DNA from: Zanthoxylum bungeanum
Taxonomy: Eukaryota > Streptophyta > Magnoliopsida > Sapindales > Rutaceae
Direction of reading: 5' to 3'
Assembly (NCBI GenBank): GCA_019454045.1
Contig: SKCR01021400.1
Coordinates: forward strand, 1 to 64,000
DNA: 64,000 nucleotides
Both the position numbers and the translations under genes were made by a program. Position 1 is the first letter of the stretch, and each line of letters begins with the position of its first letter. Positions 12,958 through 53,345 of this stretch are shown one piece after another. The notes under the pieces were generated by a model. That model had not been told where the DNA came from, made no database searches, and saw only the letters and a list, made by a program, of their open reading frames with translations.

Positions 12958-14885
12958 TGTTAGTGTTTTTTTTAGGCGCAGTGGAAGAAGCGCGGTTCGG
13001 GCGAAAATGTAGAAACACCGCGAAATAATATCCAATATTAATAATTCATTCATATTTCACCTAAACATATTTATTCGATATCAAATCACGACATAAATAT
13101 ATAGAAACAACACGCGAAACTTTTACGAAAATATTTTTCCGCAAAATAATATAAACGAACCGACCGACCAATGCACATGGGGGCTGCCCAGGTCAGATCT
13201 AATAGTACTTGGACAGTTCGTGGGATGCCCGAACAGTGACCAACTCACTATTTGGGCAGTCTTTCCCCGATAACGTTGTTTTTTCGCAGTTTTCGTGTAT
13301 TTTCACTTCGAAACTATTTTCGATAATTATTTTTCAAGGGCAATTAAAATAAACTAATTTATTCTAATTATACAATACTCAAAAATATATTATATCCCAA
13401 AAATCAGATTTTTTTTCTCTTAATTACGTGTGAGACCCCAATAGCTTACATTTTGATCATTTTAGTCATAATTTGTCAAATACCAATTTAAGTGATTTTA
13501 AATCACCACAAATGATTTATACATATCATATACATCAAAATATAACTCACAATAAAAATCCCCAATTTCTTGCAAATTGCCGAGAACACCAACAACTTTG
13601 CATTTTGATCAATTTGGTCCAAATTTGTTCAAAATAAGTTTAGATGATTTCCAATCAACACCAAATGATTTTTATATCTTATATACATCAATATACAACA
13701 CATATATGAAAAGCCTCAATTTTGGTTTAAGTTAAGAACCATAATTTCTCAAATTAGTCCAATTAACAAAATTAACTAAAATTAACCAAATTCAACACTT
13801 TAATCTAATCTTTACAACAACAAAATCTCACCACTTTGAAACAACTCAAGAGCAATTCTAGGTCATCAATGAGTAGCCCAACAACTCTAGAATGGCAACA
13901 AGATCATCAAATGATCCCATTTATAAGCATACTTTGTAAAACATTCCTGCAAACATCTTTCATCATGCTTCCAACCATCGTAACACAAAAACAAGAGAGT
14001 AGTAAAAAATTAAGAACAACACATGTTGTAGCCAAGAACAAAAGGAATAATTTTCCTTCTAATGAAAAGTTGGAAATACTTACTAATTTGCAAGATTTCT
14101 TTACTTTCATCTTAACTCTTCTCTTTTTCTCTCAACTCCTTTGTTTATTTCTTCTTGAAAGCCTTGAACTTGTTTATAGAATGAAAAACAAAACTTTATA
14201 TACCTAGGGTTAAGGTGGCCGAAATTCTCAACAAAAATAATAGATATTTTGTAATTTTTATCAAATAAAAGAAGCAAAATTCAATTGATAACCTTTATCT
14301 TTTAATGTAAGAGTCAACATTTACACATTAATCATTCCTTAATAAATATCAACTTAGATAGATATTTTATATTTTTAATTACTTAATCATTTAACAATTA
14401 AATAATAAATAATTATTAAAATACAAATATCCAGATATATGTATTTTATTTATTTTAAATAATCCAAATACATATATTAATGATATATGTCAAATTTCAT
14501 TATTTGACAATTAATTAATGTATATTTAATAAAATCAAGTATTAAATACAAATACACATTAATTAGGAAATGACCAAAAGGCCCCATATACATGTATCTT
14601 TCGTTTAACCGTTAAATGATTTATAAATAATCAGTATTATTCATAAAAGTTGCCCTAGTACTCTACAAGTATATTTCATTAGTGAGACTCTCTAAGTTCA
14701 AACATATCTATCACGAAATCCAATTTCATGTCCATAATTTACCCACCCATAAATTATGACGATCACGAATAAACTTGTTAAACTATACATGTCGAGGTCA
14801 TCGCATGCATATAATCCCTCCGTCATAAGTATTCGGATTATTCCAGAGATATAGATATTAACATCAAATCTCTATAGGTAAAATC
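12958..14885 (-). repeat. E 3' LTR, distal part (interrupted by C1)
   Basis: On the minus strand this is the 3' portion of a copia LTR ending ...CACTAACA at 12958. A TATATAAAG box lies near 14198 on the minus strand. It continues at 39503 beyond C1; joined, the LTR is about 2.7 kb. The solo LTR S (31610-34015) runs without a break across the same point, which confirms that the two parts belong together. Confidence 0.8.
14881..14885. repeat. Target-site duplication of C1 (left), AAATC
   Basis: AAATC at 14881-14885 precedes TGTTGGAC. AAATC at 39498-39502 follows the AACTAACA-type end of C1's right LTR. Confidence 0.93.
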
Positions 14886-16898
14886 TGTTGGACAATTATG
14901 ACCCATATCGTCACTATTTGTACAGATCACGGTGTTGTTGTACAATTAACTATGTGACAAAGGAGATTGCACTCTTATCATTTGTGATTAGATCACCTAG
15001 ATATATATAAATGATAGGAGGTCCTTATGGATGTTCCTGGATTGAGAATGATATGAGACAGTATCAATCCACGAAGGATAAATCATTAAATATCCCTAGT
15101 CAGAGTATTATCGAGATTGGACATCGATAAATACGTAAAAGACTAGTATTACACTTGTGCGCGTTGTGAGGGCACGACGGCATAGTTCTCATATATTTGG
15201 ATATAGGATACTCATGCTAGTGTAATAGGAGGTTGTGTTTTACCGATGGTACGGGAAACAACTTCACTCTGGATAGACCCCGCAGAATCCCATTGGTAGT
15301 ATGACTATGTGTCTATGGGAGTCTGCAATCAGGGTAGGTTGTATTTGGTCTTAACCTGAGACTTGCACCGCTAATACTTGCGATAATCAATATACTTTGG
15401 TTGAGGTCGTCCAGGGTTTTAACCGGTTCTGTGTACGCCAATTCTGGGTATATCGAGAATCATAGTGTGTTGGGTGTGATGTCGAGATGGAAGTGTCACT
15501 CCAGTCATATGGAGTTGATGATCGCGCAGGGATACAGAACTGGCTCTCTATATAAGGTTGCAACCGTCAGGATAATATGACTTGGTCGTGATTATCCGAT
15601 TTTAAAGAGACTAGTTACTCGTAATCCGATATATGCTTCGTACGGGGCAGACACTATACCAGTCCCAGGCCTCGCATGTGATCATCTGATACTGGACAGA
15701 AATACGCAATACTACGTATACTACGCCTGATATAGATCCTTTATTCCTGTAAGGATATTTCCGGAGAATTGGGTAGGCATGACGCTTTGCTAGAAGCCAA
15801 CCTTGTCTTGTAAATCGGTATAAACGTAGTACTAGGTACTTACGTGTTCGGATAGTCCGACGACCGAATTTACTGCCAACATATCCGGGGATCTCATGGG
15901 TCGATTCCCAAATATTCATCGATGACGTATGACTCGCACTTTAATTAATCTGGGATTAATAAGATGATAGAGAAAATTAATCTAGGATTAATTGCGGAGA
16001 TATTTTATCTGGGATAAAATATCAATTAAAGAGAGAGAACGGTTAATTTGGAATTAATCGATTAATTAATATATTCGACATATTAAACGAAATTGGATTT
16101 CGACGTGGAATTAAAATCAGATTTTAATTCGGGCGAACGAATTAATTTAGAATTAATTCGTTAGCGACGTGAATAGTGATTTCGCTAGGCGTAATCATTT
16201 AATTACGACGCAACGGAAAATTCGTTAATTTGGAATTAGCGAACCCGAGCCCGAGATTATTTGTGAGCGCATTCACATTTCGAATTCGAGTGCGGCACGT
16301 CAAATCAAACGTCAAATCGCTAGTCGCATCAAGCGTCAAATCACTTGTCACTTTGAGTGATGTGACTTGACAACTTGTGATTGATGTGATGAGTGATGTG
16401 TGTGGTTGGCAATTAAAGCTAAATGTGTTGGAAATGAATTTGAATTTCATTTCAAGTGTATTAGTTACACTTTTGGTAATCACCAAATACGCATAACACT
16501 TTTCCCTCCTCTCTCTCCTCTCATTCTTCCTCTCTCTCACGCATTTCCTGTTCTGTTTTGGCTGGGCAAAAACCGTGAGCAGTGAAGGGAAGCAAGTGCG
16601 TTTTTGATGCAAAAACAAGAGTGCTAGCACACTCCGGGATCATGCGAAGATGATAGGGAAGTCCACCATGAGCCGGGAATCAAATGACGAAGCTTGGAGC
16701 TTGGTTTCTTGTTGATTGAAGGCCGAAAATCAGAAGCAACAGCAGCCCACTGCCGCCAAAACCAGTGAGCAGAATCTGAATTTTGTTGCGTCCTTCGTCG
16801 CTCAACCACTCGATTTAAGTATTCTGTAACTTCCGTCGTTGTATTCACACATGTTCATGCGTGTTTAATTCGATCTTGGAGACTTAGAATCACTAACA
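14886..16898 (+). repeat. C1 5' LTR
   Basis: 2013 bp, TGTTGGAC...CACTAACA. TATATAAG at 15549-15556 is the likely TATA box. The ORFs inside (for example around 15611-15919 and 16199-16630, minus strand) recur in every LTR of this family only because the LTR recurs; they match no known protein. Confidence 0.92.
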
Positions 16899-16899
16899 A

Positions 16900-22591: not shown

Positions 22592-23427
22592 TGTTGGACA
22601 ATTATGACCCATAGCGTCACTATTTGTACAGATCACGGTGTTGTTGTACAAATTAACTATGTGACAAAGGAGATTGCACTCTTATCATTTGTGATTAGAT
22701 CACCTATATATATATAAATGATATGAGGTCCTTATGATTTGTTCCTGGATTGAGAATGATATGAGACAGTATCAATCCACGAAGGATAAATCATTAAATA
22801 TCCCTAGTCAGAGTATTATCGAGATTGGACATCGATAAATACGTAAAAGACTAGTATTACACCTGTGCGCGTTGTGAGGGCACGACGACATAGTTCTCAT
22901 ATATTTGGGTATAGGATACTCATGCAAGTGTAATAGGAGGTTGTGTTTTACCGATGGTACGTGAAACAGCTTCGCTTTGGATAGACCCCGCGGAATCCCA
23001 TTGGTAGTATGACTATGTGTCTATGGGAGTCTGCAATCTGGGTAGGTGTATTTGGTCTTAACCTGAGACTTGCATCGCTAATACTTGCGATAATCAATAT
23101 ACTTTGGTTGAGGTCGTCCAGGGCTTTAACCGGTTCTGTGTACGCCAATTCTGGGTATATCGAGAATCTTAGTGTGTTGGGTGTGATGTCGAGATGGAAG
23201 TGTCACTCCAGTCATATGGAGTTGAAGAACGCGCAGGGATATAGAACTGGCTCTCTATATAAGGTTGCAACCGTCGGGATAATATGACTTGGTCATGATT
23301 ATCCGATTTTAAAGAGACTAGTTGCTCGTAATCCGATTATAGCTTCGTACGGGGCAGACACTGTACCAGCCCCAGGCCTCGCATGTGATCATCTGATACT
23401 GGACAGAAATACGCAATACTACGTATA
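22592..23427 (+). repeat. C1 3' LTR, first part (interrupted by B)
   Basis: TGTTGGACAATTATGACCC onwards, collinear with 14886-15719. It stops at ...TACGTATA where B is inserted and resumes at 38334/38339. A TATATAAG box is kept near 23254. Confidence 0.92.
23423..23427. repeat. Target-site duplication of B (left), GTATA
   Basis: GTATA at 23423-23427 and again at 38334-38338. The uninterrupted 5' LTR of C1 has a single GTATA at this point, which confirms it as a duplicated target. Confidence 0.95.
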
Positions 23428-24845
23428 TGACCGGCGTAAACACACACGTATAACGCAAGCGTACGTTTCGTTCAAGTAGTATAAAAAGTATCGATCCCAC
23501 GAGGACTTAATACCTAAGCTATTAATTTTATGAGGTCAAATGACTACTAGTATCTAACAGGTTGATTGATTGATTTGAAATGGTGACGATTCTAAATTTA
23601 AAAGCAAGTAAATAAAATTGTCAAAAGTAGGTTTTAAGAAAATTCAATATTAAAAACTATCTAGGGTTGTGATTTCTTTTAATATCATTTTAAAGATGAA
23701 GTGGTTATCTTAAAGTTGGGTAATATATTGATTTATTAACCTAGAACACTAAATTATGTAAAAGCCTCTTCCGATGGTCAATTACAAATACCTAGTATAA
23801 TCCAATTGAACCATATGTCTATGTCAACCAAATTACCTAGATTCATTAAGATAAAGTTCCCATTAAGGCTATACCCCCGCCCGACAGGTATATTTTTATC
23901 CTGTAAGGAAATCTATTAAAGGGTTATCTATCCTCAAGGAAGATCGTGGGCTATTGAGTCTAAGGTTTTAAACTTAAATCCCTATGTCTAGTTCATTTTA
24001 AGTTTACCTAGTCAATTTTATTAGTGGCCAGTTAATAAAAAGCATTAAGATTAAGACTCAATAAATAAATCTTTATATTACACAAACTTTAATTAACCTC
24101 TTATAAACTGGTGATATTAAAAGTCATCACAACCCCAGATAACTAATTTAGTTACACACATAACTAGGACTAGTACAAACTTGAAAATAAAAGACAAAAA
24201 GTAAAATGCGGTGTAAGTAAATACTGAAAAGTAAATTAAAATAAAATAAAATGCTAAGGTAAAAGGAATTACTTTTACTACTACTAATTTAGATATCTCC
24301 CATAAAATAATATATAAACTTGTGATAATATTACCAACCGACCAATCTGGCGGTATCATAATTAAGTTAAATTAAGTCCAACCAGCCATTAAGGCGGTAA
24401 TATTTGTCCATAAACCAGCCATAAAGGCGGAACCAAATTAAATTACCAACCGACCAATCTGGCGGTATCCTTGATTAGTCAGGTTTAAACCAGATTTAAA
24501 TTAAATTACCAACCGACTAATATAGCGGTATCCTTTTTAAGTCAAATTTTAAATAGTGAATATATTATTTTTAAGGGAGATTAATCTAAATAGCAATAGT
24601 AAAAGAATTACCTTTCACCCTTGCTGGGGAAGTTACCTCCTCATGGTGAATAGTAAAAACTTTAAAAAGTAAGAAAGTAAATTACTATTATTACAGAACG
24701 TAATTAAAATTATTACAAAACTAAAAACTAAAAATTAAAAGAAACTAGAGAGAGAAACTTCTTCTTTACATCAAAGAGATGAGAGAGAGTGGTGCATCTA
24801 AAACTGAAATCTCGAGCTCAATTTATAGACCCCGTTAGGCTTCCA

Positions 24846-24880
24846 GCGTCGCGACGCCAAGGGCTTTGGCGTCGCGACGC
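24846..24880 (-). promoter_or_regulatory. Hairpin of GTCGCGAC repeats beside the B TATA box
   Basis: Perfect inverted repeat: arms GCGTCGCGACGCCAA and its complement, loop of 5 nt. Each arm contains the palindrome GCGTCGCGACGC. It sits about 15 bp upstream of the TATA box on the minus strand. The right LTR has the same structure near 37612-37646 with one changed base, and a further GTCGCGAC core occurs near 25371. Confidence 0.8.
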
Positions 24881-24889
24881 CAGCTTCTG

Positions 24890-25360
24890 TCGACGTGGCT
24901 TGCTAAGGCTTTGACATGTGGCAATTCGGATAAGAAGATAAGGCGACACGTGGCGAGGTGGCTAAGAGCTCAATTATTATGCTGACGGGCGATGATGTGG
25001 CACTGACATGGCAAGGCGGCTGAGAGCAATTGTCGGCACCGTAGGATTGCGACACATGTCACGCTGTGATTGGCTGATGATGACGTGGCATGTTTACGAC
25101 TCGGTTGACCGGATGACGTGGATGAAACGTGGCATCACACGCGTGGCAGAGTTGACTCATTGACCGGATGATGTGGCGACACGTAGGATGACACGTGCAC
25201 ACTTGGAAATAGTAATTGTCGGCACCGTAGGATGATGACACGTGGCATGGCGCACGTTAGCAGATCGGCTGTGATGGTGACACATGGCACGTCGCATGTT
25301 AGCAAAGTCAAACTTCTCAAATTCTGACCCGTTGACCCGGCGCACGTTAGCAGCTCTGGT
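24890..25360 (-). promoter_or_regulatory. B U3 enhancer-like cluster of ACGTG and TTGAC motifs
   Basis: Seven ACGTG motifs are seen (near 24893, 24948, 25082, 25115, 25128, 25193, 25239), five of them ACGTGGC as in G-box/ABRE sites. Several one-base derivatives (gacatgtggc, gacacatggc) lie among them, plus about four TTGACC/TTGACT W-box cores (near 25104, 25152, 25160, 25332). All lie 60-540 bp upstream of the TATA box in the direction of transcription. The right LTR repeats the cluster at 37665-38080. Binding is inferred from motif resemblance only. Confidence 0.6.
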
Positions 25361-25570
25361 GCACATTAGGCGTCGCGACGCGTCCAAATTACCAAAATGC
25401 CCTTTTTCCCAATTTTCACTGTTTTGGTCCAAATCACCTCCAGAATGTCATGAAACTTTATTTATCTACAAAATAACACAAAACACATCAAAATATTCAC
25501 AAAACTCAAGAAACTATACAAAATATTAGGTTAAATGAGTGGGAAATAGTGATAGATTTACCACTCATCA

Positions 25571-26841
25571 CACCCCTAAACCTAACATTTTGCTAGTCCT
25601 CGAGCAAAACACAAAATAAAATAACATTTTAACTAAGCCACTTTCATAGGGATCACGGTTGCATTTAGCATATGCAACAAGCCTTTAAACCCCTAGGTGT
25701 CCCTAGTGGAAGTTGTAGTCTCGTGAGGGTTTACAGCAATGATACCCACAAACATTTTACAAAAGTAAAAAGGTTGTAAAACTAATGCACACAGAAGCAA
25801 AAAGACAAGCGAAAAGAGAATAAAGATGTTAGTGACTAATCAGCTGAAACTTCTACTTCAAGTTACTAGTTGTTTTGTTTCTTTCTAAATTACTGAATAA
25901 GTAAATTCTCTGATTATATTTGTCATTCTTCATATACACAGCCAACATAATATTAAACAACTCATTTTTTCCCACAACAGTCATAAGTGCAGTTGATAAG
26001 AGAGTAATATTTTTGTCCTAAAGTTTTATTAGAATTCACACCTTTTTGCAACAATGAAATAATTTTTCTCATTTTTGATTTTTTTTCTTGATTTTTCTCT
26101 ATTTTTTTTTATTTATATACAATATCTTCCATCTATGTAGCGAGTGTTGAGTCGGTGGCTCCCAAACCAGTTGGCTTTAGGGCACAGGTGTTAAGATACC
26201 CCTACGGACTTAATTACTCAGACTTCAGATATATATATTTTTGCAGCATCTTTGATCCATGGGCACTAGGTGTTAAAACACCCTTACAGACTTAATAACT
26301 CGGATCTCAGATTTTTTTTTTTACTCCATCACTTTTTTGAGATGCTTCCTCCGATTAAACTAGAGCACTGAATATTACAAACTTTTCAATTTTAGCTCAT
26401 GTCCGTATGTTTCCATGTATGTTGATAATACCTGCCAATTGAGCATATGAAGATCCATTTTAGTCAATTTTATGGAGAATTTACAAATTAAATAATTTAA
26501 AAGGAAATAAGTAAAAATTAACTTGTTTCAAAATAGGTTTGAGATACGTCTCAGGAGTGAAAACTCCTTACTCAGCCATCTCTTACCAAATTCACCTTTT
26601 TAGTCAAAATAAAAACACAAAAACACAAATTTTTTTTGTAATTTTTAAAAATTTTTCAATTTTTTTTTGTATTTTTCGAAAAATTTTGGACTAAAAATAA
26701 AAACAACACACAAACTAAAACCAAGGTATTGATCAACTAATTCCCTCCCCCAAACCTAAATGAGACATTGTCCCCAATGTCTTAAACAGTAAAAGGAGAG
26801 TTAAGAAGGTCGTACCTGGTTAGCTGAAAATCGACAGGAAA
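25571..26841 (-). other. B 3' noncoding region and polypurine tract
   Basis: The purine tract GGTTTAGGGGTG (minus) abuts the LTR at about 25571-25582. A block at 25625-25750 with a TTGCAT...ATGCAA dyad matches A at 3462-3560, and cattgtccccaatgt near 26763 matches A near 4397. The rest is low-complexity T-rich sequence (26040-26115, 26300-26330, 26630-26690). No gene seen. Confidence 0.7.
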
Positions 26842-27496
26842 TTAAAGGTTAAGATCCAGATTAGCACGACGCCTATTACCACGATCGTCCTCGGACCAAT
26901 TTATCTTTGAAAGGATAGGGTCAACTAGTGGTTCATAGGCTATGAGTTGGTCTATTAGATCCGAAGCAGTTCTGGCAGTAAAAATGAGTTCTTTTAAAGG
27001 TTTTGACACGAACCAATTTCTCCGAGCATCATCAAGAAACACACAAAGAAAATCATAAAATCCATCAACGTTGAGCAGTCCAATTGGTTTCTGGTGTATG
27101 TTCAGGTTCGCCCAAGATAGCACAATAAAAATTTCCTCCAATGTACCCAAGCCACATGGCAAAGCAATAAAAGCATCAGCACGGTTAATCATTTCTACCA
27201 ATCGTTCAGACATACCTAGCACGATTATTTCCTCTCCGTTTGATGGTTCAATAAGATTTGCCTCTGCCAAGGGTTTTGGAATGATTCCCAAAACGTGACT
27301 GCCTTCTTCCTGTACCGCCTTTGAAACGATCCCCATAAGTCCAAGATTTCCTCCGCCATATATTAAGTGCATATTCTTGCAGCTAAGACTCTCGACCCAA
27401 TTCATGTGCTGCTTCTACGTATTGTGGTTTAGTTCCAGCACTACTACCGCAAAACACAAAGATGTTTTCAACTCGTCTTCTTGAAGTGGCTTCCAT
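26842..27496 (-). pseudogene. LOG-like: LOG-like cytokinin riboside 5'-monophosphate phosphoribohydrolase, captured in B
   Basis: LOG enzymes release active cytokinin bases from cytokinin riboside monophosphates in plant cytosol and nucleus. The reading begins with ATG at 27496 (MEATSRRRVENIFVFCGSSA), has a net +1 shift near 27395, then runs open for 187 codons to 26842. Family landmarks in order: VFCGSSAGTKPQY, LIYGGGNLGLMG, GSHVLGIIPKPL, ADAFIALPCGLGTLEE, KPIGLLNVDGFYD, and a natural-looking C-terminus ending NLDLNL. The total of about 218 codons equals a normal LOG. Plant LOG genes have several introns and this copy has none, so capture through RNA is likely. Changes: the PGGxGTxxE signature reads PCGLGTLEE, and the usual Arg-Lys of the preceding helix reads Arg-Leu. 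It lies in sense with B, after integrase. As it stands the frame break would prevent a full protein; an internal ATG at 27405 could give an N-truncated one. Confidence 0.88.
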
Positions 27497-27739
27497 GTTT
27501 TACTCTGGATGTCTTCAAAAGTGCAATGATGAGTTGAATTTATAACACCTGAAAAAGGTGAGTAAAATAATAGCACTAGTACCTGCCAAATGACAATTAT
27601 TAGTTGAACAAATCGTGATAGTCAAAAAGGTATGGATCCTGTCGGAGAAAATAAAAGAAAACAACAAAACAAATTACAATTATTAGGAAAAGACAAAGAG
27701 ATATAATATTTACAAGAAAAGTAGCGGCTTGATCGACGT

Positions 27740-28288
27740 TTATGCGTCAGGGACAAGCTTCCCATCCAATTTTCTTATAAATTGGCAAACAAGGTCTTTT
27801 TGAGTCAGATTCCCGAGACTTAACAATTGTCTTTCTTTTTGAAATTGTGTATGTAATTTGCGAAAGGCTATTTGAACATATCCACTGGGATGCGTCTCAA
27901 GAGTCGAAGATATATCATCTAAAGACTTCTTACTCAAGCCATCCCTAATGAATTTAATTTTGTCTTCGCGATTATGAGACAACATTCCTAAAGAACGGCA
28001 ACGAGTATTGCAATTCCAACTTGCACATTTATAACAAACACCCATTTTCTTAGCTCTACGTTTCTTTGCATAGGTGCTTCTTCCAAAACCATGCAGATTT
28101 TTAATAAAAGAGTCAGAAGACTCACCTGCCAATCGGACTCATGCTTCAATTACCCAACGAATGTCATTAGGAACACCGTGAATTGTCAGTAACCTCATCC
28201 GTCCCAAGCGAGCTTTGTAGACTTTCATCAGAGATTTTTGAGGGAGAGAAGGAAATTACTTGTGAAGATTTGCGAGAGCTTCTTCCAT
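27740..28288 (-). pseudogene. Unrecognised Cys-rich ORF, B cargo
   Basis: ATG at 28288 opens a 183-codon frame interrupted by TAA at codon 11 and TGA at codon 50 (28139-28141), otherwise open to 27740. From about residue 53 the protein is Gly/Ser, then basic (AKKRRAKKMG), then a C-x2-C-x4-C-x3-C cluster (CYKCASWNCNTRC, about residues 85-97), then a Lys/Leu-rich helical C-terminus (EDKIKFIRDGLSKKSLDDI). The cluster could bind zinc and the basic run could be nuclear or RNA-binding; both are inference. I do not recognise the family. It lies between integrase and the LOG-like gene, same strand, about 240 bp upstream of LOG, and has no counterpart in element A. Confidence 0.55.
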
Positions 28289-28426
28289 ATTGAAATGTCT
28301 TAATCTGTAAAAACTAAACACACAAAATTAAATCACACCAAATCACAATATATACAAAAATTGCATGGGTTGCCTCCCTGCTAGCGCTAAGTTTTAAGTC
28401 GTCGGCTAGACGTGACTTCCTGAACG

Positions 28427-29530
28427 TTATGCTGGATCTGAAAGTGTGACACTTTCTTTTTGCCGCTCAAATGATTCTCCCCAGTAGTGCTTGACACGCT
28501 GACTATTAACTTTGAATGTGTTGTTGGTGTTAGGATCCAGTAACTCAATAGCTCCATAAGGTAAAACCTGAGTGATCACAAATGGACCTGACCACCTAGA
28601 TTTCAACTTTCCAGGGAAAAGTTTCAATCTCGAGTTGTACAACAACACATGCTGCCTTGGTTCTAACTGTCTATGAATTATTTTTCGGTCATGCTATTTT
28701 TTGGTCTTTTCCTTGTACAATTTGGCATTCTCATAAGCCTGTAGGCGAAATTCCTCCAATTCGTTGAGTTGGTGAAGTCTTTTCTCTCCTGCAGCTTGTG
28801 AATCAAAATTCAACTTCTTCAGTGACCAGTACGCCTTGTGTTCAAGCTCAACTGGTAGATGGCACGCTTTCCTAAACACCAATCGATATGGGGACATACC
28901 AATGGGTGTCTTGTAAGCTATCCGGTAGGCCCATAATGCATCATCTGGTTTTGTTGACCAGTTCTTCCTTGTTGATCCAATGGTTTATTTCTAGGATTCT
29001 TTTGATTTCCATGTTTGAAACCTCAACCTGTCCATTTGACTGTGGATGGTAAGATGTGTCAACCTTGTGAGTAACTCCATATTTGGATAGGAGTGCATCA
29101 AAGTATTTGTTGCAGAAATGAGAGTCACCATCACTGATGATTGCACGAGGTGTTCCGAACCGAGTGAAAATATTCTTTTTCAGGAATTTGATCACGACTT
29201 TTGAATCATTGGATGGCAGTGCAATTGCTTCGACCCATTTGGAGACGTAATCTATAGCAACCAAGATGTACAAGTTTCTGAATGATGGAACAAAGGGTCC
29301 ATGAAATCAATACCATATACATCGAATATTTCCACTTCTAGAATGTTTTGCAATGGTCCTTCGTTTCTCTTCTGGAAATATTTCCCATTCTCTGACACCT
29401 GTCACATTAAAAAGCAAAAAGATAAGCATATTTAAAAATAGTGGGCCAGATCAAACCTGATTGTAGGACTTTGGCTGCAGTTTTATTTCTACTGAAGTGT
29501 CCGCCATATGGTGATGAATGACAGTGCTGC
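28427..29530 (-). pseudogene. B integrase
   Basis: Minus strand: zinc-binding region HCHSSPYGGHFSRNK with following CDRC (about 29540-29400), then the catalytic core with Asp in AIDYVSKW, Asp in ISDGDSHF and Glu in NGQVEVSN (29273-28941), then [20 protein letters not shown] and a C-terminal beta domain KLFPGKLKSRWSGPFVI (28694-28427), the GPY/F-type tail. Stops and frame changes lie at about 29280, 28930 and 28690. It would insert element cDNA into the genome. The C-terminus ends just before the ggttgcctccctgctagc block that precedes the cargo. Confidence 0.85.
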
Positions 29531-31113
29531 AAAACACTGTTGATTTCCTCCTGTGGAACACACCGTCTCAATAATTGATCAGCACATCGTTTGAACAGGT
29601 ACGGTTCATCCCAGACATAGTGCTTGACTTCTTTGAAGAACTTCTTCCGTTGCTAAGTTGTCCATTCCAACGGCCATTTTCCTGACACAATGTAGTTGAC
29701 ATAGTCAGCATACCAATGGACTTCCTGTTGTTTCATGGCAAACAGCTGTTCATCTGGAAAAGTTTCTTTGATTGACAGATCTTTGTCAGTTGTTTCCATT
29801 CTCGAGCCTCGATAGATGATCTGCTACCTGATTCTCTGTCCATTTCCTGTCTCTGATCTCCACGTCGAATTCTTGCAGAAGAAGTATCCAACGGATCAAT
29901 CTGGGTTGATTGCTGAATGATCTGTGTAGACCACCACTTTGGGACCTAGCAGATAGGAACGAAATTTGTCAAAATCATACACAACTGCGAGCAACTCCTT
30001 TTCGGTGGTTATGTAGTTGAGTTGAGCTTCATTCAGAGTTCTGCTAGAATAATAAATGGTGTGGAAAATCTTTGCTTACGTTGTCCCAAAACTGCACCTA
30101 CAGCAAAATCACAGTATCGCACATCACTTCAAATGGAAGGGTCCAATCTGGTGCTACAATGATGGGGGCAGAGACCAGCTTCTGTTTAAGATCTCAAAAG
30201 CTTCCTGGCATTCTTTGGTGAAGTTGAAGGACACATCTTTCTCCAGAAGATTGCACAGAGGTTTTGCAATTTTGGAAAAGTCTTTGATAAATCTCCTGTA
30301 AAAACCTGCATGTCCAAGAAAACTTCGAATACCTTTTACTGATGTTGGTGGAGGTAGTGTTTTTCAATTGTCTCTATTTTTTGCTTTGTCTACCTCAATC
30401 CCCTATTGTGAAATCCGGTGTCCAAGAACAATGCCTTCCTGCACCATGAAGTGTGCATTTCTCCCAGTTGAGTACCAGGTTTGTATCTTCGTACCTTTGT
30501 AACACATGTTCCAAATTTTGCAAACAATGGTCAAAAGAATCTCCAAACACAGAAAAGTCATCCATAAAAACCTCCATACTCTACTCCAGCATGTTTGAGA
30601 ATATGGCCATTATGCAACGCTGGAATGTGGCAGGGGCATTACATAATCCAAATGGCATCCTGCGGAAAGCAAAAGTACCATAGGGACATGTAAATGTGGT
30701 TTTCTCCTGATCTTCTGGGGCGATAGCAATCTGATTGTACCCTGAATATCCGTCCAGAAATCAATAGAACTCATGTCTTGCCATTCTGTATAACATCTGG
30801 TCAATGAATGGTAGCGGAAAATGGTCTTTTCTCGTGGCTTTGTTCAGTTTCCTATAGTCCATGATAACTCTCCATCCAGTCACTATTCTTGTTGGGATTA
30901 GCTCATTCTTTTCATTGGTAATCACAGTAATTCCTCCTTTCTTTGGTACACACTGCATATGACTCACCCAACTGCTGTCTGAGATGGGGTAAATGATGCC
31001 AGCATCTAACCATTGATGATTTCTTTCTTTACGACTTCCTTCTTGATTGGATTGAGTCTCCGTTGATGTTCCACTGTGGGTTTGTACTCATCGTTCATCA
31101 GGATTTTGTGCAT
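29531..31113 (-). pseudogene. B reverse transcriptase and RNase H
   Basis: Reading on the minus strand: CVPKKGGITVITNEKNELIP and TGWRVIMDYRKLNKATRKDHFP (RT fingers/palm, about 30960-30830), LDGYSGYNQIAIAPEDQEKT, YGTFAFRRMPFGLCNAPATF (about 30770-30620), and the catalytic VFMDDFSVFG near 30560. RNase H-like sequence follows to about 29800, ending with VADHLSRLE. Several in-frame stops (after HEFY and after SNMLE, among others). Gypsy-type RT by the FMDD box and domain order. Confidence 0.85.
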
Positions 31114-31605
31114 CTAAAATGATGGACTAATGCCTCGAATGTCTGCTATAGTCCAGCCAATGGTTTTCTTGTGCTCTCGTAACACTCTCAGTAAGTTTTC
31201 TTTCTGCTCCAATGTTAGTGAAGAAGAAATAATAACAGGTAATTCAGAAGAGTTTCCAAGAAATGCATACCTGAGATGACTCGGAAGTAACTTCAGCTCC
31301 AACTGTGGTGGTTCTTCAATTGAGGGCTTGATTCGATCTTTCCTTGGCAGTTCCAAGCTTTCAACTGGTGGTGTTTCTTTGAATTGGAATGATTTGTCAA
31401 GGTAGTTGATACATTCCAGGATTTCAGCATCTAGCTCGTTGTCAGTCATGTTGGTGATGCAAGCTTCAAGTGTATATGTGGGATTTGGCTCAGTATTTTG
31501 AACGATATTATCAACAACATCAACTCTGAAGCATTCTTCTTCCTTTTCATTGCTCGGGAATTTCATGGCTTTGAAAACATTAAAGGTCACGTCTTGGTCC
31601 TGCAC
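31114..31605 (-). pseudogene. B pol linker between protease and RT
   Basis: 163 open codons (VQDQDVTFNVFKAMKFP...TIGWTIADIRGISPSF), acidic, ending with the TIADIKGISP-type motif that precedes RT in Athila-like pol. S splits it from the protease: KV before and VQDQDV after the insertion come from the same codons in the CTTTC duplication. A stop separates it from RT. Confidence 0.75.
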
Positions 31606-31609
31606 TTTC

Positions 31610-34015
31610 TGTTGGGGTTGGTGCTCAGAGCGTCAATTCCCGGTTGTATTTCGTTGAATACTTCTGTAAAACATTATTATTATGAATAATATATGCAGTT
31701 TCTATAATATAATCTATATTTCTATATGGTAAGACGTAATGACCCTATAATGATTAGTCATGATACAGTTGCAAAAGCGTCACAACGGACATTGAGAAAT
31801 ATCATGATGTTGTCATTCTCAGACAGTTCCTGGTCAAGGTTTACACTACTTGGTCAGTATAGTAAACCCGTTGAGACCGGTACAGTCGTATACTGGAATA
31901 TATGATTCCAATGGTTTCTCAATGAACCATTAGTCTTGGAGACTAGTATAGACGTGTAGGTGTTTATAAGGCGGATAAACACTGAACGACTCACCGAAGA
32001 TTCTTAATGGATGGTACACCAGCGTCAATAAGAATCTTCTTGGTTGAGTAGCACTTGTGATTCTTAGACTTGAGATGCCATTGTGGGCACATGAGACATC
32101 TTCTACACTTAGACGGCAGTCACGTCACCGATCTATTTAGATCAGACCTCCGCCTGTTCGTTGGGTGTAGACAGATCCTCAGGGTGTCCTATGTGTATCA
32201 AGCTAGGATCCGTCAGTTCTGTGTATCAGAGCATAGGTAGTCCATATGATTAGCAATCAGATAAAACCATGGGCCCGTGGTACAGTTTAGAAGCTAGTTC
32301 TAAACATTCTTTTTGAGATTGCTAATGGAATAGTCGACTGGATAATCCCGATAGAGATTTGACGTTTACATCTATATCTCTGGGATTTATCCGGATAGCT
32401 GTGACGGAGGAATTATACATTTGTCATGACCTCGACCTGTATGGTTCAACGAAATTATCTGTGATCGTCATAATCTACGGGTGGATAGATTATGGACACG
32501 AAATTAGATTTCGTGACGGATATACCTGAATCTAGAGAGTCTCAATAATGAAACATACTCGTAGAGCACTAGAGCAACATTAATAAATAATATTGATTAT
32601 TTATAAAGTCGTTTAAAGGTTAAACGCAATATACGTGCTAAAGAGACTAGATATTCATTTGCTTAATTTTTGTGTATTTACATTTAATACTTGATTAATT
32701 TAAATACACATTAATTAATAGTCAAAATGAGTTATTTGACTTATATCCTAAATGAATATATGTTTTTAATATTTAATGTAAATATTATACATATATTTAA
32801 TATATTTGTATTTGATTAATTAATTAATTATTAATTGTTAAATGATAAATTAATTAAAATATAAATATCTTATGTTAGGATATTAAAGTAATGATGATAT
32901 TAGTTGCTTTTGTTGACTTAAATAAATATCTAATAAAGTTGTATTAAGATATTTATGCAAGTTGATAACATAAGCTTGAAATGAAAATGAAATTACAAAA
33001 CTTGTCTTTGAATTTGTGAAATTCGGCCAAGGCACATTTGGTGCAAGTATATATTGATTTTCATTTCACTTTACACTTAACCTAATACACTTTAAAGAAA
33101 GAGAAAACTCCATTGAAGAAACTAAGGAAAGCTTGAGAAAAGAAAGATAAATCAAAGAAAGCTTGGAATTTTAGTAAGTTTTCAAACTTGCTATTAGAGA
33201 GGAAATTGTTCCTTAGGTTCTAGGCTTCAACATGTGATGTTCTTAGATTATTTCTTTCTTTATTTCTTTGTGTTTTTGTTGATGGAATTTTGATAGAAGT
33301 GTTGAGCATGTATGGTGAAGGAAGGTTGTGACTATTGTAGTTGTAAACTTTCTTTTAAGGTTTTGGAAACCATGCTGCTAATCTAGAGTTATTGACCCAC
33401 TCTTAAATGACCTAGATTTGATCTTGAGTTGTTTCATTGTGTTGAGACTTGGATTGGATGGAAGAATGATGATTAAAGTAATTGATTTAAACTATTTGGT
33501 CTAATTTGTCCAATTTGAGGAAATTGAAAAATTAGGGTTCATGACCAATTCCAAATTTGGGGGTTTTCATATATGTTGTGTATTTGGATGTGTATATGAT
33601 GCATATAAAGTTTCATGTTGATTGGATTACATCTTGATGTGTTTTGAAGCATGAAATGACAAAGTGCACAAATGGCACCTTTAGGGAGCATTCGGCCAAA
33701 GTGATGAAATTGGGGATTTGGTTGCTTTTGGTGTTTTGATGTTTTGAACATGCTAAGTTCATCTTAGAAATGATTTAGAATCATTCAAAATTGATTAGAT
33801 CAATTTCGGACTAAAATGGACAAAATACCAAAGTAAGGGTAATTTGGTAAATTCACTTAAATATGTTTTATTGAATTTATTTTCATAATTGATTATTGGA
33901 ATATTAAATAAATATGTTTATTTAATTAATCCGAGAAAAAATTTTGAAATCTGAAAATCGGATTTTCACCGCTTCCGCTGCGTTATACCAGATTCACCCC
34001 CTAAAAACCCATACA
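31610..34015 (+). mobile_element. S: solo LTR of the E copia family inside B pol
   Basis: TGTTGGGGTTGGTGC...AACCCATACA, 2406 bp, flanked by CTTTC on both sides (31605-31609 and 34016-34020). No interior, primer site or purine tract. Collinear with E's LTR along its length, for example the cgcctgttcgttgggtgtag segment near 32150 against 39680 on the other strand. A solo LTR arises by recombination between the two LTRs of a full element. The ORF at 33539-33751 is not a gene. Confidence 0.9.
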
Positions 34016-34020
34016 CTTTC

Positions 34021-36060
34021 ATGGTCAGTTCTCATTTTTGCACATCAATCACAGTTTTACCTGTAGCCAAGAATGGTCTCCCAAGAATTATAGGTATTTC
34101 TTTGTCTTCTTCCATGTCAAGGATGATGAAATCTGCTGGGAGAATTAGTTTGTCTACTTTCACCAGTACATCTTCAACAAACCTCTTGGAAATGCGAGTG
34201 TTCTGTCAGCAAGTTGCAATGAAACTGAGGTAGGCATTGCTTCTCCAATCTGTAGTTTCCTGTAAATAGAAAAATGCATCAAGTTAACACTAGCTCCTAA
34301 ATCACATAAAGCCTTACCGATATAATGTTCTCCAATGTTGCATGGAACTATGAAACTGCCAGGATCTTTCAACTTTGGGGGAAGTTTCATCTGAATAATG
34401 GCGCTGCATTCTTCCGTTAATGCTACTGTTTCGTAGTCTCCCAATCTCCATTTTCGTGAAAGAATGTCTTTCATGAGTTTGACATAACTGGGCATTTCTT
34501 CCAAGGCTTCTGCAAATGGGATTTTGATGTGCAGCTTTTTGAAAACCTCCAGGAATCGAGCAAACTGCTTGTCCATTTTGTTTTTCTGAAGACGCTGAGG
34601 AAAAGGTGGAGGTGGAATGATTCTTTCTGGTTCTTTTTCTTTTGCTTCTTTTTCCTCCATCTGTTGCTCTGCTTCTTTTGGAACATCTTCAATGGTTGCC
34701 TTGATTCCAACATCTTTATTGATTTCAGTACCACTTTTCAAGGTGATGGCTTGACATTGCTCCTTCCCTCGGTTCCTTGGATTTGGTTCTGTATTGCTGG
34801 GAAGATTTCCTGGTGGTCTGTAACTATGAGCATTGGCCAGTTGTCCGATTTGATTCTCCAGTGCTTTGATAGAAGCATATTGGCTTTGAAATATAGCATC
34901 ATATGCTGCTTGTTGCTTTTTGAACATCTCTGCAATTCATTCTTTCATTTCTGGTTCTTTTTCAAACTCATGGCTTTTGTTATGTTGCTGGAATCCAGGT
35001 GGGGGATAGTTCTTTTGCCCTGAATTGTTACTCCATGAAAAATTAGGATGATTCCTCCACCCTGGGTTGTAAGTGTTGGAATATGGATTATTCCCATGTC
35101 TGTTGAAATTGTTGACATAATTCACCGTCTCTTCAAGTTGGTTTAGTTCTGGTGCTCCTCCATATGGTGAACTTGTGGATCCAGTGGTAAGAGTCTCCAT
35201 GAATTTGCATATCTGATCTAACTTGGCACTGAATGCTGTATTGGCTCCACTTTCATAAATTCCTGCAATTCTTTGGATCATGCTCATTTCTGTTGGCCAC
35301 AAGGAATTGTTATTGGCCATTTCTTCGATTAGTTCCCAGGCTTGATCTTCTCCTTTTGCCATTAAAGCTCCTCCAGCAGCAGCATCGATTGTGGTTCTCA
35401 TTATTCCAGAAAGTCCATTATAGAATGTTTGGACTTGAAGCCATTTTGGAATCTCATGGTGAGGACATTTCCGGAGTAAATCTTTGTACCTTTCCCAATC
35501 TTCGTAGAGAGTTTCGGAGTCTTGTTGCACAAAGGATGTGATGTCATTCCTCAGCTTTCCAGTTCTGGCTGGTGGAAAGTACTTTGCAAGAAATTTGGTG
35601 GCTAAAGTGTTCCAAGTTGTGATGGAACCTGCTGGTAGTGAATGTAGCCAAGCTTTAGCTCTGTCCTTCAAGGAGTATGGGAAAACCGCAATCTCATTGC
35701 TTCTTCAGAATATCGGTTATAATTGAAAGTGCTGCAAACTTCCAGGAAGTTTCTGATGTGGGCATTAGGATCTTCAGTTGCATTCTCCACAAACTGAACT
35801 GACTGGTGAATCATCTGAATTCATGTTTTGATGTCACCTGCGTTTGCTGGTAATGGAGGAAGTACAATGTAAGAAATGAGTCTGTCAACCACCGGAATGG
35901 TTCTCTCTCGAATGGGAATTGGTGGTGCAACTTCCAAAGGTTCAGGTTCCATGTTGACTAAAGCTTCTTGGCCTTCTCGCCTTTCCTCTCAACTGTCTGA
36001 TGGTTCTTTCAATTTCGGGTCAAGCGGTCGAAGTTCAAAACTTCTGGTTCGTCTCATGAA
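34021..36060 (-). pseudogene. B gag and protease
   Basis: From about 36060 down the minus strand: an N-terminal gag region with stops (36060-35680); the retrotransposon gag domain MKDRAKAWLHSLPAGSITTW through CPHHEIPKWLQVQTFYNGL (35671-35400); NPGWRNHPNFSW near 35060; a stop near 34930; AITLKSGTEINKD (about 34740); coiled Lys/Glu linker; protease core CDLGASVNLM (34289-34303); then, after a frameshift near 34160, [19 protein letters not shown] (about 34100-34050). No CCHC knuckle seen, as is usual for Athila gag. Disabled by at least one stop and one frameshift. Confidence 0.85.
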
Positions 36061-36165
36061 GCTTCTAAGAACCTGAAACACAAGAAAACAAAAATAATAA
36101 GTAAAAAGAAATTAGATACAAGTAAAAGTATCTAACCCCTAAACTAATAGTAAAAGATAAATAAG

Positions 36166-36183
36166 TCCCCGGCAACGGCGCCA
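36166..36183 (-). promoter_or_regulatory. B primer binding site, tRNA-Asp
   Basis: Minus strand TGGCGCCGTTGCCGGGGA, 6 nt from the 5' LTR. It is the exact complement of the 3' end of plant tRNA-Asp (GTC), CCGGCAACGGCGCCA, plus flanking bases. Confidence 0.9.
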
Positions 36184-36189
36184 AAAACT

Positions 36190-38333
36190 TGACCGGCGTA
36201 AACACACACGTATAACGCAAGCGTACGTATCGTTCAAGTAGTATAAAAAGTATCGATCCCACGAGGACTTAATACCTAAGCTATTAATTTTATGAGGTCA
36301 AATGACTACTAGTATCTAACAGGTTGATTGATTGATTTGAAATGGTGACGATTCTAAATTTAAAAGCAAGTAAATAAAATTGTCAAAAGTAGGTTTTAAG
36401 AAAATTCAATATTAAAAACTATCTAGGGTTGTGATTTCTTTTAATATCATTTTAAAGATGAAGTGGTTACCTTAAAGTTGGGTAATATATTGATTTATTA
36501 ACCTGGAACACTAAATTATGTAAAAGCCTCTTCCGATGGTCAATTACAAATACCTAGTATAATCCAATTGCACCATATGTCTATGTCAACCAAATTACCT
36601 AGATTCATTAAGATAAAGTTCCAATTAAGGCTACCCCCGCCCGACATGTATATTCCTATCCTGTAAGGAAATCTATTAAAGGGTTATCTATCCTCAAGGA
36701 AGATCGTGGGCTATTGAGTCTAAGGTTTTAAACTTAAAATCTCTATGTCTAGTTCATTTTAAGTTTACCTAGTCAATTTTATTAGTGGCCAGTTAATAAA
36801 AAGCATTAAGATTAAGACTCAAGAAATAAATCTTTATATTACACAAACTTTAATTTAACCCCTTATAAACTGGTGATATTAAAAGTCATCACAACCCCAG
36901 ATAACTAATTTAGTTATCACACATAACTAGGACTAGTAAAAACTTGAAAATAAAAGACAAAAAGAAAAATGCGGTAAAGTAAATACTGAAAAGTAAATTA
37001 CAATAAAATAAAATGCTAGGTAAAAGGAATTACTTTTACTACTACTAATTTAGATATCTCCCATAAAATAATATATAAACTTGTGATAATATTACCAACC
37101 GACCAATCTGGCGGTATCCTGATTAAGTCAAATTAAGTCCAACCAGCCATTAAGGCGGTAATATTTGTCCATAAACCAGCCATAAAGGCGGAACCAAAAT
37201 TAAATTACCAACCGACCAATCTGGCGGTATCCTTGACTAGTCAGGTTTAAACCAGATTAAAATTAAATTACCAACCGACCAATATAGCGGTATCCTTTTT
37301 AAGTCAAATTTTAAATAGTGAATATATTATTTTTAAGGGAGATTAATCTAAATAGCAATAGTAAAAGAATTACCTTTCACCCTTGCTGAGGAAGTTACCT
37401 CCTCATGGTGAATAGTAAAAACTATAAAAAGTAAGAAAATAAATTACTATTATTACAGAACGTAATTAAAATTATTACAAAACTAAAAACTAAAAATTAA
37501 AAGAAACTAGAGAGAGAAACTCCTTCTTTACATCAAAGAGATGAGAGAGAGTGGTGCATCTAAAACTGAAATCTCGAGCTCAATTTATAGACCCCGTTAG
37601 GCGTCCAACGTCGCGACGCCAAGGGCTTTGGCGTCGCGACGCCAGCTTCTGTCGACGTGGCTTGCTAAGGCTTTGACACGTGGCAATTCGGATAAGAAGA
37701 TAAGGCGACATGTGGCGAGGCAGCTAAGAGCTCAATTATTATGCTGACGTGGCAAGGCGGCTGAGAGCAATTTTCGGCACCGTAGGATTGCGACACGTGT
37801 CACGCTGTGATTGGCTGATGATGACGTGGCATGTTGACTCGGTTGACCGGATGACATGGATGATGACGTGGCATCACGCGTGGCAGAGTTGACTCGTTGA
37901 CCGGATGAAATGACAACACGTAGGATGACACGTGGCACACGTGGAAATAGTAATTGTCGGCACCAGAGGATGATGACATGTGGCACGGCGCACGTTATCA
38001 GATCAGCTGTGATGGTGACATGTGGCACGACGCACGTTAGCAAAGTCAAACTTCTCAAATTCTTACCCGTTGACCCGACGCACGTTAGCAGCTCCGGTGC
38101 ACATTAGGCGACGCGACGCCAAGGGCTTGCGCGTCGCGACGTGTCCAAATTACCAAAATGCCATTTTTTCCCAATTTTCACTGTTTTGGTCCAAATCACC
38201 TCCAGAATTTCCTAAAACTTTATTTATCTACAAAATAACACAAAACACATCAAAATATTCACAAAACTCAAGAAACTATACAAAATATTAGGTTAAATGA
38301 GTGGGAAATAGTGATAGATTTACCACTATATCA
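36190..38333 (-). repeat. B 5' LTR (right copy), promoter
   Basis: 2144 bp, TGACCGGCG...CTATATCA. TATAAAT (minus) at about 37581-37592, GTCGCGAC hairpin at about 37612-37646, ACGTG/TTGAC cluster at 37665-38080. In B's direction this copy drives transcription of gag-pol and the cargo genes. GTATA follows at 38334-38338. Confidence 0.95.
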
Positions 38334-39497
38334 GTATACTACGCCTGATATAGATCATTTATTCCAGTATACTAAGGATATTTCCGGAGAATTGGGTAGG
38401 CATGGCGCTTTGCTAGAAGCCAACCTTGTCTTGTAAATCGGTATAAACGTAGTACTAGGTACTTACGTGTTCGGATAGTCCGACGACCGAATTTACTGCC
38501 AACATATCCGGGGATCTCATGGGTCGCTTCCCAAAGATTCACCGATGACGTATGACACGCACTTTAATTAATCTGGGATTAATAAGTTGAGAGAGAAAAT
38601 TAATCTGGGATTAATTGCGGAGATATTTTATTTGGGATAAAATATCAATTAAAAAGAGAGAACGATTAATTTGGAATTAATCGATTAATTAATATATTTG
38701 ATATATTAAACGAAATTGGATTTCGACGCGGAATTAAATTCAGATTTTAATTCGGGCGAACGAATTAATTTAGAATTAATTGTTAGTGACGTGAATAGTG
38801 ATTTTGATAGGCGTAATCATTTAATTACGAAGCAACGGAAAATTCGTTAATTTGGAATTAGCGAACCTGAGCCCGAGATTATTTGCGAGCGCATTCGTAT
38901 TTCGAATTCGAGTGCGGCACGTCAAATCAAGCGTCAAATCGCTAGTCGCATCAAGCGTCAAATCACTTGTCACTTTGAGTGATGTGACTTGACAACTTGT
39001 GATTGATGTGATGAGTGATGTGTGTGGTTGGCAATTAAAGCTAAATGTGTTGGAAATGAATTTGAATTTCATTTCAAGTGTATTAGATACACTTTTGGTA
39101 ATCACCAAAAACGCATAACACTTTTCCCTCCTCTCTCACGCATTTCTTGTTCTGTTTTGGCTGGGCAAAACTGCGAGCAGTGAAGGGAAGCAAGTGCGTT
39201 TTTGATGGAAAAACAAGAGTGCTAGCACACTCCGGGATCATGCGAAGGTGATAGGGAAGTCCACCCATGAGCCGGAAATCAAATGACGAAGCTTGGAGAT
39301 TGGTTTCTTGTTGATTGAAGGTCGAAAATCAGAAGCAACAGCAGCCCACTGCCGCCAAAACCAGTGAGCAGAATCTGAATTTTGTTGGCTCCTTCGTCAC
39401 TCAACCGCTCGATGTAAGTATTCCGCAACTTCCGTCGTTGTATTCACACATGTTCATGCTTGTTTAATTCAATCTTGGAGACCTAGAATCACTAACA
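38334..39497 (+). repeat. C1 3' LTR, second part
   Basis: Resumes with the duplicated GTATA and CTACGCCTGATATAG, matching 15719-16898, and ends CACTAACA at 39497, followed by AAATC. The joined 3' LTR is about 1995 bp against 2013 bp for the 5' LTR. ORFs here (38821-39108, 39083-39268) are LTR sequence. Confidence 0.93.
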
Positions 39498-39502
39498 AAA
39501 TC

Positions 39503-40295
39503 CTGTCGACGTTTATGTTAGCAATCTCATAATAACACTTAGAACTCATTTCTACAATGTACCACGGATCCATGGATTTAACGGAATTGTTAATCCCATA
39601 ATGAATACCTATGCTCTGTACACAAAACTGATAGATCCTATTTTGATACACACAGAATATCCTGAGGATCAGTCCACACCCAACGAACAGGCGGAGGTCT
39701 GATCTAAATAGATCAGTGATGTGACTGCCATCAAAGTGTGGAGGATACCTCATATATCCACAGTGGTATCTCAAGTCAAAGAATCACTATGCTACTCAAC
39801 CTGAGAAGATTCCCATTGACATTGGTGTACCATCTATTAGGTAATCTTTGGTGAGTTCTTCAATATTTATCAAATAAATACCTACACGTCTATACGAGTC
39901 TCCTGAGACTCATGGTTTATTGGGATGAATCATCAGACCAAGTCACGATATACGACATGTACTGGTCTCAGTGGATTTTTACTAATCGATCCATGTCATT
40001 AAATCTTGACCAGGAAATTTATTTGATAATATATATCTAGTAGTGACACTTCCCAATGTCAATTATAAGTTATGTTGTAATTGCGCACTATATTATATAT
40101 TATCGGGTCTCTGTCTAATATAAATATCACTAAACATGATTTAGTTTCAATATAATGAATTAGATCGAATATATATAATAAAAGACAAGAGGTGCAACCA
40201 TAAATAAGTAATATTATGGAAAAAGGCATTGTTCGTATTCATGAATCGGACATAAAGACGATCCGGATTGGCGCTCCGAGCACCAACCCTAACAA
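39503..40295 (-). repeat. E 3' LTR, proximal part
   Basis: On the minus strand it starts TGTTAGGGTTGGTGCTCGGA at 40295 and runs to 39503, where C1 splits it. It matches S in the same order. A purine-rich tract lies directly upstream. Confidence 0.85.
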
Positions 40296-53017: not shown

Positions 53018-53345
53018 TGTCCGTTCGAATGCGTTTGCAAACGCAACTCGAACGCGCATACATTTTGCCTTATCATGCATCAGGTCTCCTTTCCATTCGA
53101 ACGCGTTTACGAACGCTACTCGAACGTGAGAATTCTGTTTCATTTCCGTTCGAACGCGTTAACAAACGCCATACGAACGTGAGCATTCTGTTTCATTTCC
53201 GTTCGAACGCGTTTACGAACGCTACTCGAATGTGAGCATTCTGTTTCATTTCCGTTCGAACGCGTTTACGAACGCTACTCGAACGTGAGCATTCTGTTTC
53301 ATTTCCGTTCGAACGCGTTTACGAACGCTACACGAACGTGCACAC
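53018..53345 (+). repeat. Tandem repeat, exact 53-bp period, 5 copies plus one diverged, in G
   Basis: TTCCGTTCGAACGCGTTTAC ... CTCGAACGTGAGCATTCTGT starts at 53091, 53144, 53197, 53250 and 53303, with a diverged unit near 53018. The same TTCGAACG core is dispersed at 51058-51140 near the start of G. Confidence 0.92.

Follow-up and report, generated by a model that had tools for sequence, protein, structure and literature searches.

A YgdH/LOG domain in plant Gypsy retrotransposons is already published: PMC9289625 reports it in Gypsy consensus sequences of Citrus sinensis and C. clementina and, without a five-consensus filter, of Populus trichocarpa, and cites Steinbauerova et al. 2011 as in line with this finding. 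The same paper describes AlkB (2-ODD, m6A demethylase) carried by Phalaenopsis Gypsy elements that are sister to Ogre. These resemble the element studied here in that a host enzyme was captured, became fixed in a Gypsy lineage as an additional ORF and is proposed to work in the element's favour; however, enzyme and lineage differ, and the AlkB protein was tested in vitro. A further comparison is the Athila lineage, whose features as given in PMC6317226 were applied to our element: both are large Gypsy elements with extra ORFs between pol and the 3′ LTR, although here these ORFs are NABP-like and LOG. The accessible part of PMC7264820 makes no mention of LOG or cytokinin. In section 12 of PMC9289625 the Citrus and Populus elements are described by the domain only, whereas the present family adds a genome-wide word count, the position of LOG, selection, an LxLxL tail and an NABP-like neighbour. 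No report of purifying selection across such a family, of an EAR-like tail that is conserved or of a virus-type NABP gene carried alongside LOG was met in the literature searched. To our knowledge, captured genes in plant LTR elements have seldom been shown to be kept by selection, and the many natural copies of one family allow use and decay to be separated statistically.

The window, the 64,000-nucleotide stretch of Zanthoxylum bungeanum contig SKCR01021400.1 that was analysed, holds a Gypsy LTR element on the minus strand with both ends complete (23428-38333) and with LOG inside, between the integrase and the 3′ LTR (Table 1). An empty site, free of insertion, is present in the sister LTR of the host element within the same window. 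The two LTRs of the LOG-carrying element (each ~2.14 kb; 23428-25565 and 36190-38327) are 94.5% alike with gaps counted and diverge by a K80 of 0.031, which we take to mean an insertion age of ~1.2-2.2 million years at rates of 1.3e-8 and 7e-9. Gag and the zinc-binding and core domains of the integrase pass their Pfam cut-offs, all in one orientation. The protease and the RT/RNase H frames are presumably so named, by motif, and TGGCGCCGTTGCCGGGGA is probably of tRNA-Asp type. The element probably belongs to the Athila lineage, a name that we base on the resemblance of gag/protease and the primer-binding site. LTRs, gag, integrase, a tRNA-type primer-binding site and a 5-bp target duplication are present but are not specific to Athila, and a Pfam scan of ten element frames gave no match to Athila ORF-1. 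For the additional RNase H that marks Tat elements, the position considered was the gap between the integrase frame (up to 29652) and the RNase H-like frame (starting from 29789; presumed by motif), which spans only ~140 bp.

Table 1. Features of the LOG-carrying element and its insertion site, in window positions
Feature	Position	Strand	Basis or remark
TSD, left copy, GTATA	23423..23427	.	single GTATA at 15716-15720 of uninterrupted sister LTR
TSD, right copy, GTATA	38334..38338	.	5 bp
Host LTR split by the insertion	22592..39498 (22592-23427 + 38334-39498)	.	uninterrupted copy 14886-16899
3′ LTR of LOG-carrying element	23428..25570	-	LTR pair alignment; termini TG...CA
LOG ORF (217 codons in unbroken copies)	26842..27496	-	one frame break near residue 36; PCG for PGG; tail ...NLDLNL
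Candidate 3′ splice site 5′ of LOG	27634..27667	-	pyrimidine tract ending CAG|G; sequence reading
NABP-like ORF, carlavirus-type nucleic-acid-binding	27743..28288	-	in-frame stop in window copy; full span by tblastn
Integrase region, split over several frames	28430..29652	-	PF00665 E=3.1e-15 in 28944-29306; PF17921 E=3.2e-7 in 29410-29652
RT / RNase H region, decayed (names presumed)	29789..31087	-	open frames; PF00078 weak, E 0.03, below cut-off
gag + protease region (protease presumed)	34160..35704	-	PF03732 E=1.1e-21 in 34940-35704
Primer-binding-site-like TGGCGCCGTTGCCGGGGA	36166..36183	-	sequence directly read, next to 5′ LTR
5′ LTR	36190..38333	-	LTR pair alignment

The window copy of LOG is recognisable over its whole length. 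Using an unbroken 217-aa copy as tblastn query, residues 1-35 align at 27496-27392 and residues 37-217 at 27387-26845; the start and the natural end are therefore both present, with a single frame break (net +1). A 187-aa piece matches Pfam PF03641 (Lysine_decarbox) at E=7e-34 (117.3 bits against a cut-off of 27) and Arabidopsis At2g37210 (2a33) at E=9.9e-46; as sequence matches, both are far above chance level. Introns are absent from 27496-26842. These results bear out the sequence-only reading, which had described an intronless LOG running from ATG to its natural C-terminus with one net +1 shift, in sense with the element and between integrase and 3′ LTR. The glycine motif reads PCG, so PGGxGTxxE is not found in this copy. 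The putative splice acceptor before LOG is a speculative guess, since 1,231 of the 1,521 non-coding windows compared show higher conservation.

The 3.96-Gb assembly containing the window contig was searched for further copies. A PF03641 profile search gave 47,331 first-look candidates; among the best 150 scored, a best-first list and not a fair sample, each covers no fewer than 130 of the 131 profile positions and 147 lack an internal stop. An exact 29-base word over the LOG PGG motif occurs 9,248 times genome-wide (4,688 + 4,560; reversed-pattern control 0), a count of words and not of whole LOG genes, and the data look like an element family that carries, in thousands of copies, LOG, a gene resembling that of the cytokinin-activating enzyme. 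Twenty of the 150 candidates were taken with up to 10 kb of DNA, and in all 20 the same element stretch comes after LOG, with the LTR next in most (L027 excepted). A sample chosen independently of LOG comprised 12 of 150 integrase matches; one stretch fell off its contig, and each of the 11 usable ones contains LOG and at least one flanking element stretch. Three of these 11 LOGs are partial, L058 running off the end of its stretch while L052 and L057 look truncated. LOG is thus present in every sampled copy of the element. Frame integrity varies with how copies were chosen: an undamaged LOG frame is seen in 13/22 fully covered copies ranked by PF03641, in 12/18 ranked by LOG exon and in 1/8 ranked by integrase. 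Apart from the separate host loci L029 and L030, all LOG copies read in the sampled loci are flanked by element sequence. These two host loci consist of several exon-like blocks without an LxLxL tail, in agreement with the earlier statement that plant LOG genes have several introns. Carriage of a spliced LOG by an LTR element, as opposed to a lone pseudogene, had been proposed from the window and is supported by the element relatives, with LOG in 11/11 integrase-selected stretches. A separate processed LOG pseudogene inserted in this one element, which the absence of introns would suit, was rejected on the co-occurrence of LOG with the same element stretch in 20/20 LOG-selected loci and with flanking element in 11/11 integrase-selected ones, and we leave it a negligible probability.

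The evidence for selection lies in the distribution of codon variants. From 55 LOG pieces of at least 300 bases, 49 copies were retained after dropping L001 (distant), L006 and the second piece of L015 (near-duplicates of L010 and L015) and L052, L057 and L058 (<600 bases); L003, L005, L007 and L008 were represented by longer refetched loci. Among single-step codon variants private to one of the 49 copies, the nonsynonymous to synonymous (N/S) ratio is 140/57 = 2.46, against a neutral expectation of 2.37 that assumes our chosen 4:1 transition weight. Variants found in two copies number 29 N and 22 S, and those in at least three copies 45 N and 69 S, a ratio of 0.65 (Fisher p 5.7e-8 versus private); as the copies are mutually related, the Fisher values for LOG and for the NABP-like ORF overstate certainty and serve as a guide only. 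Private variants are near neutral while shared variants are short of amino-acid changes; purifying selection therefore acted on LOG during the element's replication, whereas its decay after insertion was near neutral. Pairwise dN/dS is ~0.24 among 14 unbroken copies, and variation by codon position is 0.074 at position 3 versus 0.018 at position 2. Mean major-allele frequency is 0.956 in LOG versus 0.953 in the non-coding stretch 3′ of it. Since LOG as a whole is no better conserved at the nucleotide level than the 3′ stretch, the codon pattern constitutes the evidence for selection.

The checks proposed in the sequence-only reading thus gave unbroken copies with PGGLGT elsewhere in the genome and the low dN/dS among copies just cited. 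Its suggestion that capture was recent, or that the ORF was kept for some time, holds in its second part. A recent single capture is ruled out by the 9,248 PGG words, the selection on shared variants and the grouping of the protein with 22 relatives in a tree (below). The near-complete frame of the window copy agrees with long selection plus a young insertion. That its motif is PCG was correct, and this change is perhaps not restricted to the copy, since the PCG version of the word occurs 532 times genome-wide.

A neighbouring NABP-like ORF and the LxLxL tail are additions to the earlier reading. The 132-aa open part of the ORF in the window (27743-28138) scores 26.9 bits against PF01623 (Carla_C4; cut-off 20.9) and 23.2 bits against PF05515 (Viral_NABP; cut-off 23, barely passed), and 14/18 and 16/18 aligned members match these respective profiles at E<=0.001. 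It shares with the viral proteins a basic and Cys-rich core that passes the Pfam cut-offs, but it lies in a retrotransposon, is ~182 aa long and has conserved N- and C-terminal parts of its own. Relatives at E<=0.001 number 383, and among the best 120 of these are proteins bearing the names of Populus, Xanthoceras, Acer, Rhamnella and Orobanche. Its codon variants (N/S 89/31 private, 23/9 in two copies, 20/35 in at least three; expectation 2.44, p 3.7e-6) show that this ORF, too, looks maintained by purifying selection. At least 400 bases of it are covered in 23 of 51 loci, although many of the 51 do not extend far enough to include it, and it is absent from some long loci such as L019 and L022. 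Its structure is predicted with low confidence (pLDDT 64, pTM 0.32). A carlavirus-type NABP within a retrotransposon was not met in the titles and abstract openings of the literature searched, subscription papers lying mostly outside that reach. The element seems to use the LOG and NABP-like genes, not merely to drag both along.

The LOG protein of the family shares the fold and the PGGxGTxxE motif with canonical plant LOGs (2a33, 1ydh), whereas its gene is intronless and the protein has a basic LxLxL tail, carries Leu in place of Lys after the Arg and belongs to a separate clade. The C-terminus of its relatives combines a basic patch with LxLxL (for example LDLNL, LDLSL or LTLSL). Of the best 120 among 2,651 relatives, 92 carry the motif in their final 12 residues, and several of those without it are truncated, versus none of the best 120 of 7,982 canonical LOG1/3-type sequences, a list that does not sample all LOG groups. 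Within the last ten LOG codons, variants in at least two of the 49 copies are 3 N and 7 S versus 11 N and 1 S among private ones. LxLxL is an EAR repression motif, and by motif the tail may be called EAR-like; the literature matches listed, as far as accessible, held nothing relevant on EAR motifs in captured retrotransposon genes. In the 49 copies, most of them chosen by LOG score and the window copy not included, both glycines of PGGxGTxxE are kept throughout and the Arg of MSER in 48; the residue that follows is Leu in 48 versus Lys in the five canonical LOGs aligned. PCG was found in none of 52 well-covered fetched copies, and its 532 occurrences may reflect an amplified subfamily or recurrent mutation; if the former, catalysis would be dispensable or supplied in trans.

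A model of one relative, P0001 (mean pLDDT 85, pTM 0.82), resembles LOG structures from Arabidopsis and from bacteria, 2a33 being the best PDB match (E 2.3e-20), and suggests that the LOG fold is kept in the family, with the tail predicted to be disordered. In a tree of 35 proteins, one branch (96/94) sets apart an unbroken family copy together with 22 relatives, some of them named as Populus, Paulownia and Reevesia proteins, and a different branch (99/95) sets apart 11 canonical LOGs; P0038 and P0041, which have the canonical MHERK, branch first. Viral contigs searched for relatives of a Populus LOG yielded 12 pattern-matching stretches, none of which encodes a relative.

We consider it fairly probable that a Gypsy element, probably of the Athila lineage, took up a spliced LOG mRNA long ago and has since kept it between integrase and 3′ LTR to serve as an accessory gene, with the NABP-like gene just upstream in many copies. 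Under this proposal the element's own transcript would express LOG, which would make active cytokinin, or act on related nucleotides, in cells with an active element; cytokinin would favour dividing, meristematic cells, and new copies could thereby reach the germ line. The NABP-like protein would protect or handle element RNA or blunt silencing, and the basic LxLxL tail may bring LOG into the nucleus and into contact with a TOPLESS-type corepressor. On sequence grounds, the pair is most likely a putative accessory module that would shift host hormone state and silencing or transcription to the benefit of the element. Against this proposal, Lys is replaced by Leu in 48/49 copies; undamaged frames are rare among integrase-selected copies (1/8, with L052 and L057 also looking truncated); and the 532 PCG words, the LOG nucleotide conservation close to that of the 3′ stretch, the splice site without special conservation and the copies lacking NABP all weigh on the same side. 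That LOG was a neutral passenger, captured once and copied along without use, would fit the broken state of the window copy and of most integrase-selected copies as well as the equal nucleotide conservation of LOG and the 3′ stretch; however, we judge it very unlikely in view of the shared-variant N/S of 0.65 against 2.37 expected and the concentration of variation at codon position 3.

A further reading is that of a LOG-like protein kept for a non-enzymatic or altered role, as a nuclear adaptor acting through its tail or on another nucleotide substrate, and not for making cytokinin. The restriction of LxLxL to the relatives in the comparison above, the shared variants of the last ten codons, the predicted disorder of the tail, the Leu beside the Arg and the PCG words speak for such a role, but PGGxGTxxE, the catalytic motif, persists along with the LOG fold, and the EAR reading comes from the motif alone; we hold this to be possible, though on the doubtful side. 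In our view it is unlikely that the LOGs with an LxLxL tail belong to an ordinary group of host paralogues from which the element took copies on more than one occasion. Tailed proteins bearing Populus, Paulownia and Reevesia names, known here as proteins only, and the early branching of P0038 and P0041 would suit a host origin, but the LOG copies read in the genome are flanked by element sequence, the host loci L029 and L030 are built of exon-like blocks and lack the tail, and the domain is reported in Populus and Citrus Gypsy consensus sequences in PMC9289625.

Returning to the retained accessory gene, a wider reading would be that of a eudicot LTR lineage with a selected two-gene module, a LOG with a nuclear/corepressor tail and an RNA-virus-type NABP that is possibly silencing-suppressing, which would manipulate cytokinin state, transcription and silencing in a virus-like manner, with gene exchange between one RNA-virus family and LTR elements; as a whole we regard this as tentative and rather improbable. 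Were LOG active, a transposon would have taken over a growth-hormone step, and if the NABP-like protein works as its viral relatives do, transposons and RNA viruses would share anti-silencing tools. Transposon copies can also inflate LOG gene counts in plant genomes.

Several loci depart from the standard structure. L015 and L020 contain tandem arrays of LTR fragment, NABP and LOG with a period of ~3.5-3.6 kb, the best units being 98-99% alike; these are long tandem repeats derived from the transposon, which multiply LOG. In L010, L012, L014, L017 and L018, gag-protease is followed by a partial integrase, RT/RNase H being absent and LOG and NABP kept, and these are likely non-autonomous derivatives; the DNA of the RT/RNase H stretch is in place in 5/20 LOG-selected loci (L016, L019, L021, L026 and L028). 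Within the window, the only LOG and NABP found are those of the LOG-carrying element. Remnants of another element on the plus strand (13650-14878 and 39500-40016), 74-80% alike to its internal region, are split by the LTR element that itself holds the LOG element, forming a three-level nest. At 53084-53340 a short direct repeat recurs every 53 bp.
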